From a virus, in IMG/VR virus record IMGVR_UViG_3300023179_006134, positions 1 through 64,000 of that record: a stretch of DNA of 64,000 bases. One strand, given 5' to 3'. The notes beneath the pieces are model-generated. The model did not search any database, was not told the DNA's origin, and saw only the letters and a list, made by a program, of their open reading frames with translations. Made by a program: the position numbers and the translations under genes. This document shows, piece after piece, positions 4,368 to 30,861 of this stretch. Position 1 is the first letter of the stretch. Each line of letters starts with the position of its first letter.

Positions 4368-7300
4368 TTATTTTTTGAGTTCTTCAATTTCTGCCTGAAG
4401 AGCAGCAATTTGAGCACCTTGCTCCTTCACTGCTTCAATCAGAACTCCAATCAGACCATTATAGTTCACGGTCTTGTGAGTATCACCAGTTTGAACCAGT
4501 TGTGGTAAGTGCTCTTCAATTTGTTGAGCAATCACACCAATTGTTTCTTTTCCAGTTTCCTTCCAAGAGAAGTGAACACCCTCAAGTTTAGAAACGAGTT
4601 CGGATGCACTCTCAACCTGTCTGATATTTTCTTTAAGGTTGATATCAGATGTTGCGTTGAAGTCTGTTGCCGTACAAACTCCAGATAGACTTAATGAAGT
4701 TCCCGTTGCAACACCTAATACTGGTGTTACTAGAGTTGGACTTGTAGCAAATACAAGTGCTCCAGAACCAGTTTCGTCACTGATAACACCAGCAAGTTCG
4801 CTTGAAGTGGTTGCTGAGAATGCACTTAACTTATTGCTTGTATATGCAACAGTACCACCTGCACCAAAAGCAACCGAAGAAGCATCAGTACCAGTGAATG
4901 TTAATGTATTTGATGCAGTTAAAGTTTTGCCGTCAGCAATCGTTAAAGTTGCAGATGTTGCTGGGGCAGTAATTGTAACTTTGTTAATGGTAGTTGCATT
5001 AGCAGTACCAAGAGTACTAATACCACTATAATTTACGTTTGTACCACCAAGATTGGTAATAGTTCCATTGGTATAAGTTAATGTTGTTCCACTTAATGTA
5101 GTTGCTGTAGTAACTCCAGTAGCATTAATATTAGTAGCACTCAATGAAGAAACTGTTGATACTCCAGAAGAGTTAATGTTACCTTGTACACCACCATTAG
5201 CAACAATAGCACCAGTAACCGTAAGAGATCCTAGTGTTCCAACAGAAGTGAGTGAAGAATTAACAATACCGGAACCTAATGTTGTAGAAGTAAGAACATC
5301 AGTTCCATTAATCTTGTATGACTTTCCAGTCAAAAGATTCATATGTTCTGATGAAGTCCAAGAATCGGTAGCATCTACCCAATTGAATGTCTTATTTCCC
5401 TGTCCAGATTCAACCGTAATACCACCACCATCAGCAGCAGCATCATTAGCAGCACCAGAAGCAAGAGTAATGTTCTTGTCATCGACAGTTACTGTTGTAG
5501 AATTGACAGTAGTTGTAGTACCATCAATTTGCAGATCACCTTTGATTACAACTAGACCAGTGTTGTCTCCAACAGCAGCAGGGTCAATAGTGATCGTTGC
5601 AGGACCAGAAATTGTATTGGTATTAATACCAATTGCAGAACCTGATGCACCAGTTACAAATTGAGCAGCAGTAACGATACCTGATGCATTTACATTACCA
5701 GTTACGTTTCCAGTGAGTGCTCCGGCAAATGATGTTGCAGAAAGAGTACCAGTAGAAGGATTGAATGAAAGTTTTGTTGTTGATACTTTAGATGATGTAA
5801 TGGTTCCAGTAGTTGTTTGAGTGAGTACTGGGAAGAAACTTTGATTTGTTGTTGTATCATCAGCCACAGTAGAACCAGTACCAGTCAGTCCACTACCATT
5901 ACCAACGAATGATGTTGCAGTAATGATACCAGTTACATTAATATTTGATGTATTAACAAACTCTGAACCATTATATGCAAGAAGGTTTCCTGTTGTAATA
6001 CCAGTAAGTGTAACATCAGTTAGGTCATTTAGACTGCTTACCTGACCAGTTCCGGCACCAAGAGTTGCATAAGACACAAACTCAACAGTATCATTCGCAA
6101 ATGCACCTTCAGAGAGAGTGATTGTAGTACCGTTATTTGCAGTAAATTCTGCAGAAGATAATTTAACACCATTCACAAATACATCAAGGAAGTTTACATT
6201 ATATACAAAACTGAATAATGTTTGATTTGCTGTTGCAGTAAATGTTTGTGTTGTTCTGGTTTGTGGTAATAGGTCATTAAAGGTTTTCCAAGTTACACCC
6301 ACTCCAGTAGAAGCAATAATCTGATTTGCAGCACCAGTAGTATTTCCAATAGAAACATAACCACCAATATTTAAATTGGTGACTGTTGATACTCCAGAAG
6401 AATTAATGTTACCAGTTACGTTTCCAGTGAGTGCTCCAGCAAATGTAGTAGCAGTAATGATACCAGTTGAATTTACATTACCAACATCAAGTTTGATAAG
6501 AGTTCCAACCGATGTGAGTGAAGAATTAACAACGTTTGAACCAAGAGTTGTTGAGGAAAGAACATCAGTTCCATTAATCTTATAAGTCTTACCAGAAGCA
6601 AGATTAAAGTTTTCACTTGACTTTAATGCTGTATTAGTATGATCGTAAGTTAAAGTATTGTCTGGTCCAATTTTAATACCCGCACCATCCGCAAGTATAT
6701 CTGAAGTAGCAGTAGAAGCAATACCAACAACAAAATCGGCAAGTTCTATAGTTGTGGAGTTAACAATAAATTGAGTTCCATCAACAAATAAGTCACCTTT
6801 AATTCTTACGGCACCAGTATTATCACCAACAGCAGCAGGGTCAATGGTGATTGTAGCGGGACCAGAAATTGTATTGGTATTAATTCCAATTGCAGAACCA
6901 GAAGCACCAGTTACAAATTGAGCAGCAGTTACGATACCTGATGCAACAACACTCGTAAGAGAAATGTTATCATCAAGATTAACTGTTACTGTATTAGAAG
7001 CAGCTGAAGATGTTAAGTTGGTTCCACCGGAAATAGTTAAGTTCTCTGATAAGAAATTGATCGTTTCAGTTCCACTGTCACCGGCAACAGTTAATGCGGC
7101 TCCAATCGCAGCAGTACCTGCAGCAGTTAAACGTCCCTTAGCATCAACAGTGAATGTAGGAATTGCTGTGGAAGAACCATAAGAACCAGCGGTAACACCA
7201 GTATCTACAAGATTAAGTGTTACAGTGTTACTTGCTGCGGATGTTGTAATAATTCCAGCAGTGCCAGCAATAGTTAAGTTCTCATTAAGGAAATTAATTG

Positions 7301-15814: not shown

Positions 15815-15880
15815 TTTTCTTTATTTATAAACCTTTATTTCTTGATATTGTGACTTATATTTCTCATTGATTTCTTTTTT
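15815..15880. repeat. 66-bp direct repeat, copy 1
   Basis: It is identical to 16562-16627 except at two positions (15829 and 15869). The pair flanks the oxygenase gene at 15913-16551. Confidence 0.85.
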
Positions 15881-15912: not shown

Positions 15913-16551
15913 TTAATTGTAGGATAATGAGGATTTTTTTTGCAAATCATCAGTAAGACTGGAAAAATTATCACAAAAAATATCAAAAGCAATTATTATT
16001 CTATAATTATTACCAATATGTTTTTTTGAACCATGCATATATCCAGAGGGAAAAAATAATAGATCATTTTCATCTAAATCCGGTTCAAAAATTATTTCTT
16101 TTTTTGGTTGTTTTACAAAATTTCTATTTTTAAAAAAAGTTTTATTATGAGTTTCTTTATCAAACTTTAAATAATATACCCCACTAAAATCTGCTGTATG
16201 TTCATGTGAAAGTGTTTCCATTCCATTTTCATACAAAGAATACCACATTTTAGAAATAAAAAAACTATCATCTATGCGATAATATTTTAAATAATTGTAA
16301 AATGCTTTTTTTATTAAAGAAGAAAGTTCATTCACAAAAATTTTGTCTTCATCACAAAACACCGGTATATCCTCATCGTAAAATTGTTTCATAAAACAAC
16401 TAGTTCTTTTTTTGTTAAATTTAAATTTAAATTTATCGGATTTAGAATAATTAACATAATCTAATATTATTTTATCACATAGTTCTTTTTTATATTTAAA
16501 CTCAATAGTTTCCTTCCAAATATATGTAGGAATTTGTATCTCTGTACCCAT
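15913..16551 (-). CDS. 2-oxoglutarate/Fe(II) oxygenase-like protein
   Basis: This 212-residue protein has LSHEHTADFSGVYYLKF at about residues 116-132, and later LFFPSGYMHGSKKHIGNNYRIII near residues 165-190. This is the pattern of phage 2OG-Fe(II) dioxygenases: HxxxD or HxD, then a distal H and an R. The family hydroxylates diverse substrates. The gene is more AT-rich than its neighbours and sits between the two copies of a 66-bp repeat, so it was probably inserted or duplicated into this place. A CATAAATA box 18 bases upstream may give it late expression. Confidence 0.7.
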   Translation of the reverse strand: MGTEIQIPTYIWKETIEFKYKKELCDKIILDYVNYSKSDKFKFKFNKKRTSCFMKQFYDEDIPVFCDEDKIFVNELSSLIKKAFYNYLKYYRIDDSFFISKMWYSLYENGMETLSHEHTADFSGVYYLKFDKETHNKTFFKNRNFVKQPKKEIIFEPDLDENDLLFFPSGYMHGSKKHIGNNYRIIIAFDIFCDNFSSLTDDLQKKSSLSYN

Positions 16552-16561
16552 TATTATATCA

Positions 16562-16627
16562 TTTTCTTTATTTATGAACCTTTATTTCTTGATATTGTGA
16601 CTTATATTTCTCATTTATTTCTTTTTT
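16562..16627. repeat. 66-bp direct repeat, copy 2
   Basis: This is the functional copy: it covers the 3' end of the 120-residue DUF6165-like gene and the late box CATAAATA just after it. Confidence 0.85.
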
Positions 16628-28377: not shown

Positions 28378-29001
28378 TTAGGTTTCTTCAGTCTGTGTTG
28401 GATATTCAATACTACCTTTTGGAAGAGCAATCAGGTTAAATGAGATTGAGATGCGTTCTTCATCGTGATTATTGGTCTCTACTGAATGTGGTAAGTAGGA
28501 AGGAAAGAGAATAATATTACCTTCTACTGGTTCTATACGAATACTTTCTCCCGTGAACTGATTCTTTTGTGACGTGAGAGCACAACCTTTCCACATACGA
28601 TTGATTGCAGGATTTTGAAGTACCAGTTTTCCACTTTCATCAGGTGCTTGGAGATAAAAGACACCAGAGAATACTTCACCGTGAACGTGTTCACTATTCA
28701 TACACTGACGAGTATCATTAACGTTTAACCACGCAGAAGTAAGTGCAATATCACAATCCACAAAGTCCAAATCTGCAACTGCCTTAAATCCCAACTGGCA
28801 GAGATACTCAAAAAGTGGACGAAGTTCTTCTACTCCTTGTAATGTTTCTGGAGAGTGATAACCAGCAATATTTGATTTTTGTACTGATGGATTTTCTCCC
28901 TTATAAGTTCTTACTGCATTCAGGAAAATTTCTTTGTGTTCCTCAAACTCTGGATATTCACTCTGCCAGAGAGGAACCGAATAAATGGGCATTAAGTTCA
29001 T
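28378..29001 (-). CDS. 2OG-Fe(II) oxygenase, TIGR02466-like
   Basis: This 207-residue protein begins NLMPIYSVPLWQSEYPEF, like TIGR02466/2OG-FeII_5 proteins, which are frequent in T4-like cyanophages. It has SEHVHGEVFSGVFYLQAP near residues 102-119, a distal histidine and arginine in FPSYLPHSVETNNHDEERISISFNL near 164-188, and a normal family length. It is first in the compact decoration operon. A possible host-type promoter lies 26 bases upstream. The substrate is unknown. Confidence 0.75.
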   Translation of the reverse strand: MNLMPIYSVPLWQSEYPEFEEHKEIFLNAVRTYKGENPSVQKSNIAGYHSPETLQGVEELRPLFEYLCQLGFKAVADLDFVDCDIALTSAWLNVNDTRQCMNSEHVHGEVFSGVFYLQAPDESGKLVLQNPAINRMWKGCALTSQKNQFTGESIRIEPVEGNIILFPSYLPHSVETNNHDEERISISFNLIALPKGSIEYPTQTEET

Positions 29002-29026
29002 AGTGTTTTCAGTGCAAGTTTCTTAT

Positions 29027-29055
29027 ATTGTACCATATTTAGATTGTTTCGTAAA
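29027..29055 (-). promoter_or_regulatory. Possible sigma-70 promoter of the decoration operon
   Basis: TTTACG, 17 bases, then TACAAT with an upstream TGG (extended -10), ending 26 bases before the ATG at 29001. Four of six and five of six bases match consensus. Confidence 0.4.
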
Positions 29056-29179
29056 GCAATGTGTTTTGTATTCTCGTTCCCAATGTGAACTTATAATCTC
29101 TAGGAAACTGCTTCACAATAATAAAGACTCTTTTGATTAATTCACTTGCGTCCTTATATATTTTAAGTTCTTCTATCAT
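29039..29179 (-). pseudogene. avd: Truncated avd-like gene of a diversity-generating retroelement
   Basis: A 46-residue frame opens with IEELKIYKDASELIKRVF and continues KQFPRDYKFTLGTRIQNT. This is the N-terminal helix pair of Avd/four-helix-bundle accessory proteins of diversity-generating retroelements (pattern LxIYxxxxxLI, then FPxxYxFxLGxxI). Avd is normally about 110-130 residues, so the last two helices are lost. A TAA ends the frame just before the oxygenase gene. It lies directly downstream of the lectin-tipped gene at 29228-30175, the usual place of avd. The small frame may still be translated, but a working barrel seems unlikely. Confidence 0.7.
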
Positions 29180-29227
29180 AATGTTAAAAAATAGCGGTTA
29201 CAAAGTACAAGTCACAAAGTACAAGAT

Positions 29228-30175
29228 TCAATAAGTTACACACCTGAAGGCACGGACACAGAGAGTGGCAACCCTACCGTTGGTGCTGCAGTGGCCAGCA
29301 TGGAAGTCCACGAATTTAGCGATGTGCGCATTATGGCCCGGTGTACTACTCCAGTAGCGAGCGATGCTGCAGGCGTGAGTGCCACAGGAGTAGCAGGGTG
29401 ATGGACCCCAGAAGGACCTACAGACGTATCCTGGGTTCTGGAGTTGTGATAATGTTGGTATAAACCATCCGGTGCATCCTGATACTTGTTGTGCTCTGGT
29501 ACTAGCATCCCCTCGGTTGTACCAGTTTCTTGAGACTTCTGCACTATAAGGGGACACAATCCATCTCAATGGTGATGCCTTACAAATAAGAAATCCTCCT
29601 TCATATGGGTTACCTACATTTGGTGCTATTGTAGTAAAACTATAAGTATTAGCACCAGTGGTGTTAAGTCCAACAAAATCTCCAGAAGTTGATTTTATCA
29701 AACCACTTGGAATAACTGTAAATATGGTTGAACCATAAGAAATATTTGATGTTGGGACTATAGTAAGAACTCTTAAATTGGTCAGAGAAGTTTTTAATTG
29801 ATCAACACCAAAAGTATCAATTCCAGAACCTCCTGCACTCCCAGTCCGTAAAGTAAGAAATCCGGTTGTTGCGATACCAACTGCCTGACTAAAAGTTATT
29901 ACTATTGATGTGTTGACTGCAACTGATGTTGCTCCGTTAACAGGAGAAAACGAAACAATAGTTGCAGGAATATCGAATCCTGCAGCAGTCAATGTTCCTG
30001 CAATTGAAATATTTCCAGGAATTCCTTGCATTGTAATTCCTGTTCCAACACTCATAATTCCGGTCAGACCATTAATTGTAATTGTAGAGTTTCCAGATCC
30101 TACTGTTGCAATGCCAGCCGCAGAAATGTTACGACTATCATCAATTGCAGTTACATTGTTTACTTTTATTGCCAT
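29228..30175 (-). CDS. Lectin-tipped variable protein, probable DGR target
   Basis: This 315-residue protein has three parts. Residues 1-70 are a fibre-type start (IDDSRNISAAGIATVG). Residues about 70-190 are a bacterial Ig-like domain of the SbsA type (IVSFSPVNGATSVAVNTSIVITF). From about 187 it has a C-type-lectin/formylglycine-enzyme-like fold: GCTGWFIPTLSQLQ, ARYWSST, and a C-terminal CVRAFRCV. That fold and the closing VRAFR strand are typical of variable proteins of diversity-generating retroelements. The last 200 bases are GC-rich and nearly all codons at surface-like positions end in C or T, as expected when AAY template codons were randomised at A. Seven cysteines fall in the last 68 residues. 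A truncated avd gene follows. Confidence 0.78.
   Translation of the reverse strand: MAIKVNNVTAIDDSRNISAAGIATVGSGNSTITINGLTGIMSVGTGITMQGIPGNISIAGTLTAAGFDIPATIVSFSPVNGATSVAVNTSIVITFSQAVGIATTGFLTLRTGSAGGSGIDTFGVDQLKTSLTNLRVLTIVPTSNISYGSTIFTVIPSGLIKSTSGDFVGLNTTGANTYSFTTIAPNVGNPYEGGFLICKASPLRWIVSPYSAEVSRNWYNRGDASTRAQQVSGCTGWFIPTLSQLQNPGYVCRSFWGPSPCYSCGTHACSIARYWSSTPGHNAHIAKFVDFHAGHCSTNGRVATLCVRAFRCVTY
29231..29431 (-). other. Candidate variable region (VR) of the lectin domain
   Basis: It encodes the last 68 residues of the gene, from PGYVCRSFW to the end. Its base composition and the run of C/T-ending codons differ sharply from the AT-rich 5' part. Exact limits would need the template repeat, which is not visible near this locus. 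Confidence 0.6.
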
Positions 30176-30180
30176 GATTT

Positions 30181-30861
30181 TTAAAAATTAATGTTTACTT
30201 TTTTAAATGTGCGAACTAGATGAGAATATTTTTTACTCAAAACAACAGGAAAATTAGCATTATTATTTATAACATAAGAATTATTAATATCAATTTCTGT
30301 GTTTGTCCAATATAATTCATCATTTTTCAAATATTTTTTATAAAACTGCATTTCATAATAATCAGGAATATACCAACCAGAAGTTCCAGTATCTTCTTCT
30401 GTTTTTTGAATTGCCTTATCAAATTCATACCAAGTCAATAACATCTCACTTTTTTCGGGAGAAATGACTACATACCAACTATTCTCTTTTGAAATTACAA
30501 TTCCACCTTCTAATGATTTTCCAATTGGATCTTCAGTTACAAACTTAAATTCTTTATCTCCATTCATAGAAAAACCAGAAAAAGAAGAACCATTAATTTT
30601 AGAAATTATAAACCCATCACTCATCAACATATAAATTTCAGTTTCATATGGAAATGGATTTGTTGGTTGTATAATAATTTCCCATGCACTTATGATTATT
30701 TTATCACTTAAAATATCAAAAGATTCAATAAGTTCTCCTGTCTTTGAATTTTTTCTTAATTCAATTGTTCCAGAAGAACCAAATTTAATTTCTTGATTGG
30801 AAACTAAAACAATTGGAGAAAAAACTGGTGCTTGATTTGATCCGTTAAATATTTTTTCCAT
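30181..30861 (-). CDS. Lectin-fold protein, undiversified relative of the DGR target
   Basis: This 226-residue protein has a C-terminal half parallel to the neighbour. GKSLEGGIVISKENSWYVVISPEKSE here matches NPYEGGFLICKASPLRWIVSPYSAE there (about residues 133-158); TGTSGWYIPDYYEM matches SGCTGWFIPTLSQL; and LVRTFKKV matches CVRAFRCV at the end. Unlike the neighbour it is AT-rich, lysine- and asparagine-rich and has no cysteine cluster. Its ATG directly follows the TAA of the 75-residue gene upstream. The two together equal the architecture of the 315-residue protein, without the Ig-like domain. Confidence 0.65.
   Translation of the reverse strand: MEKIFNGSNQAPVFSPIVLVSNQEIKFGSSGTIELRKNSKTGELIESFDILSDKIIISAWEIIIQPTNPFPYETEIYMLMSDGFIISKINGSSFSGFSMNGDKEFKFVTEDPIGKSLEGGIVISKENSWYVVISPEKSEMLLTWYEFDKAIQKTEEDTGTSGWYIPDYYEMQFYKKYLKNDELYWTNTEIDINNSYVINNNANFPVVLSKKYSHLVRTFKKVNINF

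Follow-up and report, generated by a model that had tools for sequence, protein, structure and literature searches.

A lectin-domain gene of a T4-like cyanophage is a probable orphan target of a largely deleted diversity-generating retroelement

We analyzed a 64,000-nucleotide stretch of viral DNA (the window; it covers positions 1-64000 of a virus record that is 86,036 bases long) and found that a lectin-domain gene within it is an orphan target of a diversity-generating retroelement (DGR), accompanied by remnants of the retroelement and not by a DGR. The gene very probably encodes a receptor tip that was formerly hypermutated and is now frozen, being an ancestral DGR target whose machinery has been deleted. 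This reading is built on the homology of all parts, an adenine-specific pattern of substitution, a deletion junction, and the absence of a reverse transcriptase (RT) and a template repeat (TR) from the 86 kb. The record is a fragment of a T4-like cyanophage: it contains T4-like virion genes, a psbA-type photosystem gene and a gp32 resembling that of cyanophages. Judged by isolate genome sizes of 172-205 kb, it probably represents about half of the genome.

The target gene (29228..30175, minus strand) encodes 315 amino acids, in which a fibre-type N-terminal leader is followed by a Big_5 Ig-like domain (residues 69-182) and an Lcl-type C-type-lectin domain (residues ~190-315). Pfam matched Lcl_C to residues 203-309 with an E-value of 5e-4, below the curated cut-off. 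An AlphaFold2 model of the lectin domain, with the window's domain and those of its relatives as input, reached a mean pLDDT of 87.7. Its best fold match in Foldseek was the C-terminal C-type-lectin domain of the Legionella collagen-like adhesin Lcl (PDB 8q4e, E=2.7e-6), a bacterial protein with 22% identity to the window's domain, and C-type lectins appeared lower in the list. The preliminary description had assigned a C-type-lectin fold ending in a VRAFR strand, and both points were borne out: these results support such a fold with the variable repeat (VR) at its C-terminal end, and the protein terminates in CVRAFRCVTY. The leader, MAI.(V/I)..T.ID.SRN, is common to the target protein and neighbouring virion-type genes of the fibre region, suggesting that the protein is probably the tip of a virion appendage. 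As part of the overall explanation, we hold with high confidence that it serves as an accessory receptor-binding or fibre-tip protein, receptor binding being the putative function. A tblastn search of phage isolates with the lectin protein gave no match. Directly upstream, an AT-rich paralogous lectin-domain gene (30181..30861, minus strand; 28% GC in this region) carries no VR signature and is probably an old diverged copy.

Composition sets the 3' end of the target gene apart. The final 225 bases have a GC content that is mostly 0.50-0.62, versus about 0.30-0.47 before them. In the VR (29243..29392, minus strand; residues ~262-311), 29 of 36 codons have C or T in third position and 6% have A, compared to 53% and 38%, respectively, in the rest of the gene. 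Both features had been noticed earlier and were confirmed by these counts. The hypermutated core of the VR spans 29260-29359 on the minus strand. It is followed by a conserved 3' end, TGTGTCCGTGCCTTCAGG (29243..29260, minus strand), which is the same as the 3' ends of TRs in related phages (identical in L020 and L024) and is a probable initiation-of-mutagenic-homing site. Just after the VR stop lie two direct repeats of TTGTACTTTGT (29214-29224 and 29200-29210, minus strand). The window has no other copy of this sequence. In many relatives, something similar comes after the VR but not after the TR, and the double repeat is possibly a homing signal. A pattern search of viral contigs for the double repeat after a VR returned nothing further. 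Downstream of the VR, the window, L018 and L019 show no stable DNA hairpin (z from 0.2 to 1.1), and L020 has a weak one (z of -1.5).

Relatives were located by searching viral contigs with the DNA pattern of the VR end (CVRAFRCVTY) and then with the RT; a two-sequence alignment search recovered only L006. Complete cassettes occupy the same site in L018/L016, L019/L007, L020, L021/L025, L022/L023 and L121. Their order is VR gene, avd (110 aa), TR, RT (343 aa) and 2OG oxygenase, the TR thus lying between avd and RT. The RT possesses IGNLTSQ and YMDD motifs and matched PHROG and Pfam RT models, and Avd matched the PHROG Avd profile (E=1e-23) and, below cut-off, the NCBIfam DivGenRetAVD model. In no relative with an RT is there more than one, and it is always located in the cassette. 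Differences between VR and TR were concentrated at template adenines in L018 (21/45 A versus 2/85 non-A), L019 (17/43 versus 3/87), L021 (26/47 versus 2/78), L022 (28/47 versus 1/78), L024 (12/33 versus 0/75) and L121 (21/41 versus 2/84). L020 was the exception (8/32 versus 12/98). Its TR (5873-5998) is changed at 15 of 37 adenines common to three other TRs, compared to 4 of 51 sites with other bases. Of the 15 adenine changes, 10 are found in its own VR (5172-5298) as well. This comparison suggests that the L020 template was itself hypermutated when the VR was copied back into the TR, which would constitute a second route to loss of diversity. Three times, two nearly identical contigs with intact cassettes came from different samples, and within each such pair the VRs were identical. 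No close copy of the cyanophage RT or lectin domain was found among the phage isolates searched, and the genome contigs searched with the RT yielded only distant RTs (Clostridia, Bacteroidetes and proteobacterial MAGs) and none from a cyanobacterium.

As the window's own TR is lost, its VR was compared indirectly, with the relatives' templates. Among sites on which the TRs of three relatives concur, 22 of 37 adenines are changed in the window VR versus 7 of 51 other positions (p=9e-6), so that substitutions are focused on template adenines; the excess is also significant against single TRs (for example, 24/43 versus 15/73 with L018, p=2e-4). When TRs were compared with one another, adenines were kept (1/41 A versus 8/75 non-A changed), and ordinary divergence therefore fails to explain the pattern in the window VR. 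Lcl/DUF1566 domains are carried by many non-DGR proteins, and one might suppose that this is simply a fibre gene with a lectin tip, and that its composition and the small Avd-like gene beside it are matters of chance. We regard this as barely credible, since it leaves both the syntenic TR/RT cassettes of the relatives and the adenine-specific pattern unexplained. The same two lines of evidence uphold the initial proposal that the lectin tip was a substrate of DGR hypermutation.

The machinery itself is missing from the window. The adjoining gene, described at first as a piece of avd, is indeed one: a 46-codon open reading frame (29039..29179, minus strand) matched the PHROG profile 'Avd protein of DGR' (E=1e-9), with residues 1-40 homologous to Avd (29061-29179) and the remainder being out-of-frame RT sequence. 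About 40 codons are left of the 110-aa Avd that is complete in relatives. At the junction (29060..29061, minus strand), avd abuts the 3' end of the RT gene, of which the final 20 codons are left (IALRNNLNMVQYKKLALKTL plus stop, with no start; 28998..29060, minus strand). The window aligns to L019 at 2758-2967 and continues, ungapped on its own side, at 4461-4570, and the missing length in this one assembled contig is 1,493 bp relative to L019, 1,492 bp relative to L018 and 1,489 bp relative to L020. As read from these alignments, the event is a clean deletion of about 1,490 bp, which left only the first part of avd and the last 20 RT codons and took the TR entirely.

The preliminary description had pictured a tip that is changeable at present, and had looked to the rest of the genome for a template repeat and an RT. 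This part was not supported for the window phage. Apart from the last 20 codons, no RT is present anywhere in the 86-kb record, and neither the window nor the whole record contains a second copy of the repeat that could pair with the VR as its TR. An adenine-tolerant scan of the 86 kb gave a best non-self score of 25.3, compared to shuffles reaching 24.3; as a control, the scan recovered three of four relatives' TRs (L018, L019 and L022) with scores of 48-52. A 15-base match at 30720 was considered as a repeat copy and judged to be a chance match (E=0.1). In the window phage, the tip was probably diversified until not long ago, and it is most likely fixed at present.

Could the gap be an assembly artefact, with an intact DGR phage in the sample and an assembler that left out 1.49 kb or merged sequence from two strains? 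The locus is seen in a single contig, and VR/TR repeats in it could trouble assembly. However, the breakpoints fall in avd and RT and not in the VR or TR, no obvious repeat is common to both places, and L011, L122, L114 and L112, all from other samples, have comparable but different junctions. We consider an artefact very unlikely, and a genuine deletion is assumed below. The loss seems recent in the window phage, judging from sequence comparison: differences between the avd stump and L018 or L019 are mostly synonymous (16:5 and 15:5, respectively), and the window VR has retained the composition of intact DGRs, whereas the VRs of L011 and L006 have drifted.

Downstream of the junction is the constant neighbour of the cassette, a 2OG-Fe(II) oxygenase gene (28378..29001, minus strand; phrog_81). 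The retained RT tail contains CTAAATA (29036..29042, minus strand), located 41 nt upstream of the start of the 2OG gene, which we take to resemble cyanophage late promoters. Twelve copies occur in the record, and four of them are situated 10-80 nt upstream of a gene versus about 0.4 expected. Deletions keeping this candidate promoter may spare the downstream 2OG gene, and the RT tail may have been retained because the CTAAATA inside it drives that gene.

The same locus was also suggested for comparison in related phages, with a mixed outcome: some hold the intact RT/TR cassettes described above, and others have lost the RT. The site was surveyed by scanning with the downstream 2OG gene, while L011 and L006 came from the first scan and L021 and L022 from the RT scan. 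A VR with an avd stump and no RT was found in the window (about 40 codons), L011 (about 17-19), L114 and L112 (about 25-35) and L122 (about 48, frameshifted). The VR is present without avd in L006 (eroded traces), L115, L117, L119 and L123, and only L120 has the site without a VR. Intact L121 and deleted L122 are 84-90% identical around the site, and the L122 VR differs from the L121 TR at 18 of 41 adenines versus 5 of 84 other positions (p=9e-7). No RT exists anywhere on the 243-kb L122 contig, on which three VR-like places were counted. Two further VR-type lectin genes lie at bases 236500-243166 of this contig (L126); one differs from the L121 template at 21/43 A versus 15/85 other sites (p=4e-4), and the other shows no significant excess. 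Trees were built for two downstream genes: three changes are needed to account for the 'deleted' label on the sulfotransferase tree and two on the 2OG tree, with most branches of these trees unsupported. The sequences would accommodate either five deletions that arose separately or a smaller number of events with later erosion. Sharing of the bases AAACAATC between the retained RT tails of the window and L011 would also fit a single old deletion, then erosion.

These surveys bear on whether the DGR still works, with RT and TR residing in the unassembled part of the genome or supplied by a co-infecting DGR-bearing cyanophage that recognizes the conserved VR 3' end. In its favour, the composition of the window VR is indistinguishable from that of VRs adjoining an RT, both its 3' end and the repeats beyond it are preserved intact, the record covers perhaps half of a T4-like genome, and relatives have VRs far from any RT. 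By contrast, the single RT of each RT-bearing relative is at the cassette site, and the 243-kb L122 contig, with the same kind of loss, is devoid of RT. Moreover, a foreign TR would not restore the exact length of the window VR, which has one codon more than known TRs and also exceeds them in the length of its 5' part. A working DGR is thus unlikely, and the RT is presumably absent beyond the record as well. For RT-less cyanophages in general, it is quite unlikely that co-infecting phages with intact cassettes go on rewriting their VR tips in trans; if this happened, hypermutation would depend on helpers and be shared across the phage population.

Under the preferred reading of a frozen former target, the ancestral gene would have been under a DGR laid out as VR gene, avd, TR, RT and 2OG oxygenase. 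RT and Avd would have reverse-transcribed TR RNA with randomization of adenines, and the mutated cDNA would have replaced the VR, rewriting the binding face of the lectin. A single deletion of ~1.49 kb would then have joined avd codon ~40 to the last 20 RT codons, removing the TR and disabling Avd and RT, while sparing the whole VR gene and the CTAAATA that may drive the downstream gene. Afterwards, nothing but ordinary mutation and recombination would change the tip.

That DGRs exist, have lectin targets and are used in phage tails is already known. The DGR of Bordetella phage BPP-1 (mtd-avd-TR-brt) has the order of the relatives' cassettes, adenine-specific VR/TR differences and a C-type-lectin target used for attachment, and its brt is homologous to the cyanophage relatives' RT (31% identity, E=5e-24). 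In contrast to BPP-1, the window lacks TR, RT and a hairpin after the VR, retains avd only as a stump and has an Lcl-type target domain, and the carrier is a lytic T4-like cyanophage. The closest RTs in public phage records (38-39% identity) are those of Burkholderia phage Magia and Shewanella phage vB_Sb_QDWS, in which an Avd homologue adjoins the RT as in the cyanophage cassettes; with RT identity below 40%, these are unrelated phages and not T4-like cyanophages.

DGRs are usually found by their RT, making loci like the window's invisible to surveys. No papers on DGRs in cyanophages or on DGR decay were found in the open-licence literature, within which two things appear to be new: that T4-like cyanophages have a DGR lineage, and that several phages have lost it at one site. 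In closely related uncultured cyanophages, a single DGR can be seen at one site in intact, broken and eroded form, and this series makes it testable when a phage gains by keeping a mutable tip and when by fixing a good one. According to Roux et al. 2021 (PMC8144416), the proteins diversified by viral DGRs from metagenomes serve in tails or in attachment and have C-Lec VR domains, in line with the window's gene. The method described there needs a VR beside an RT, so that RT-less loci would be missed, and no mention of Synechococcus or Myoviridae was found in the main text.

Several minor observations were made. A 20-kb contig with no RT on it (L012:7585-8508 and L008:426-905) carries three VR-type genes, two of them adjacent and upstream of a small conserved gene. 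At another place of the L006 contig (L015:13020-13130), a short VR 3'-end remnant, STDRCVRAFRCVTY, is followed by the same downstream repeats. In the window itself, a 66-base repeat with 97% identity between its copies (15815-15880 and 16562-16627) flanks a gene at 15913-16551.
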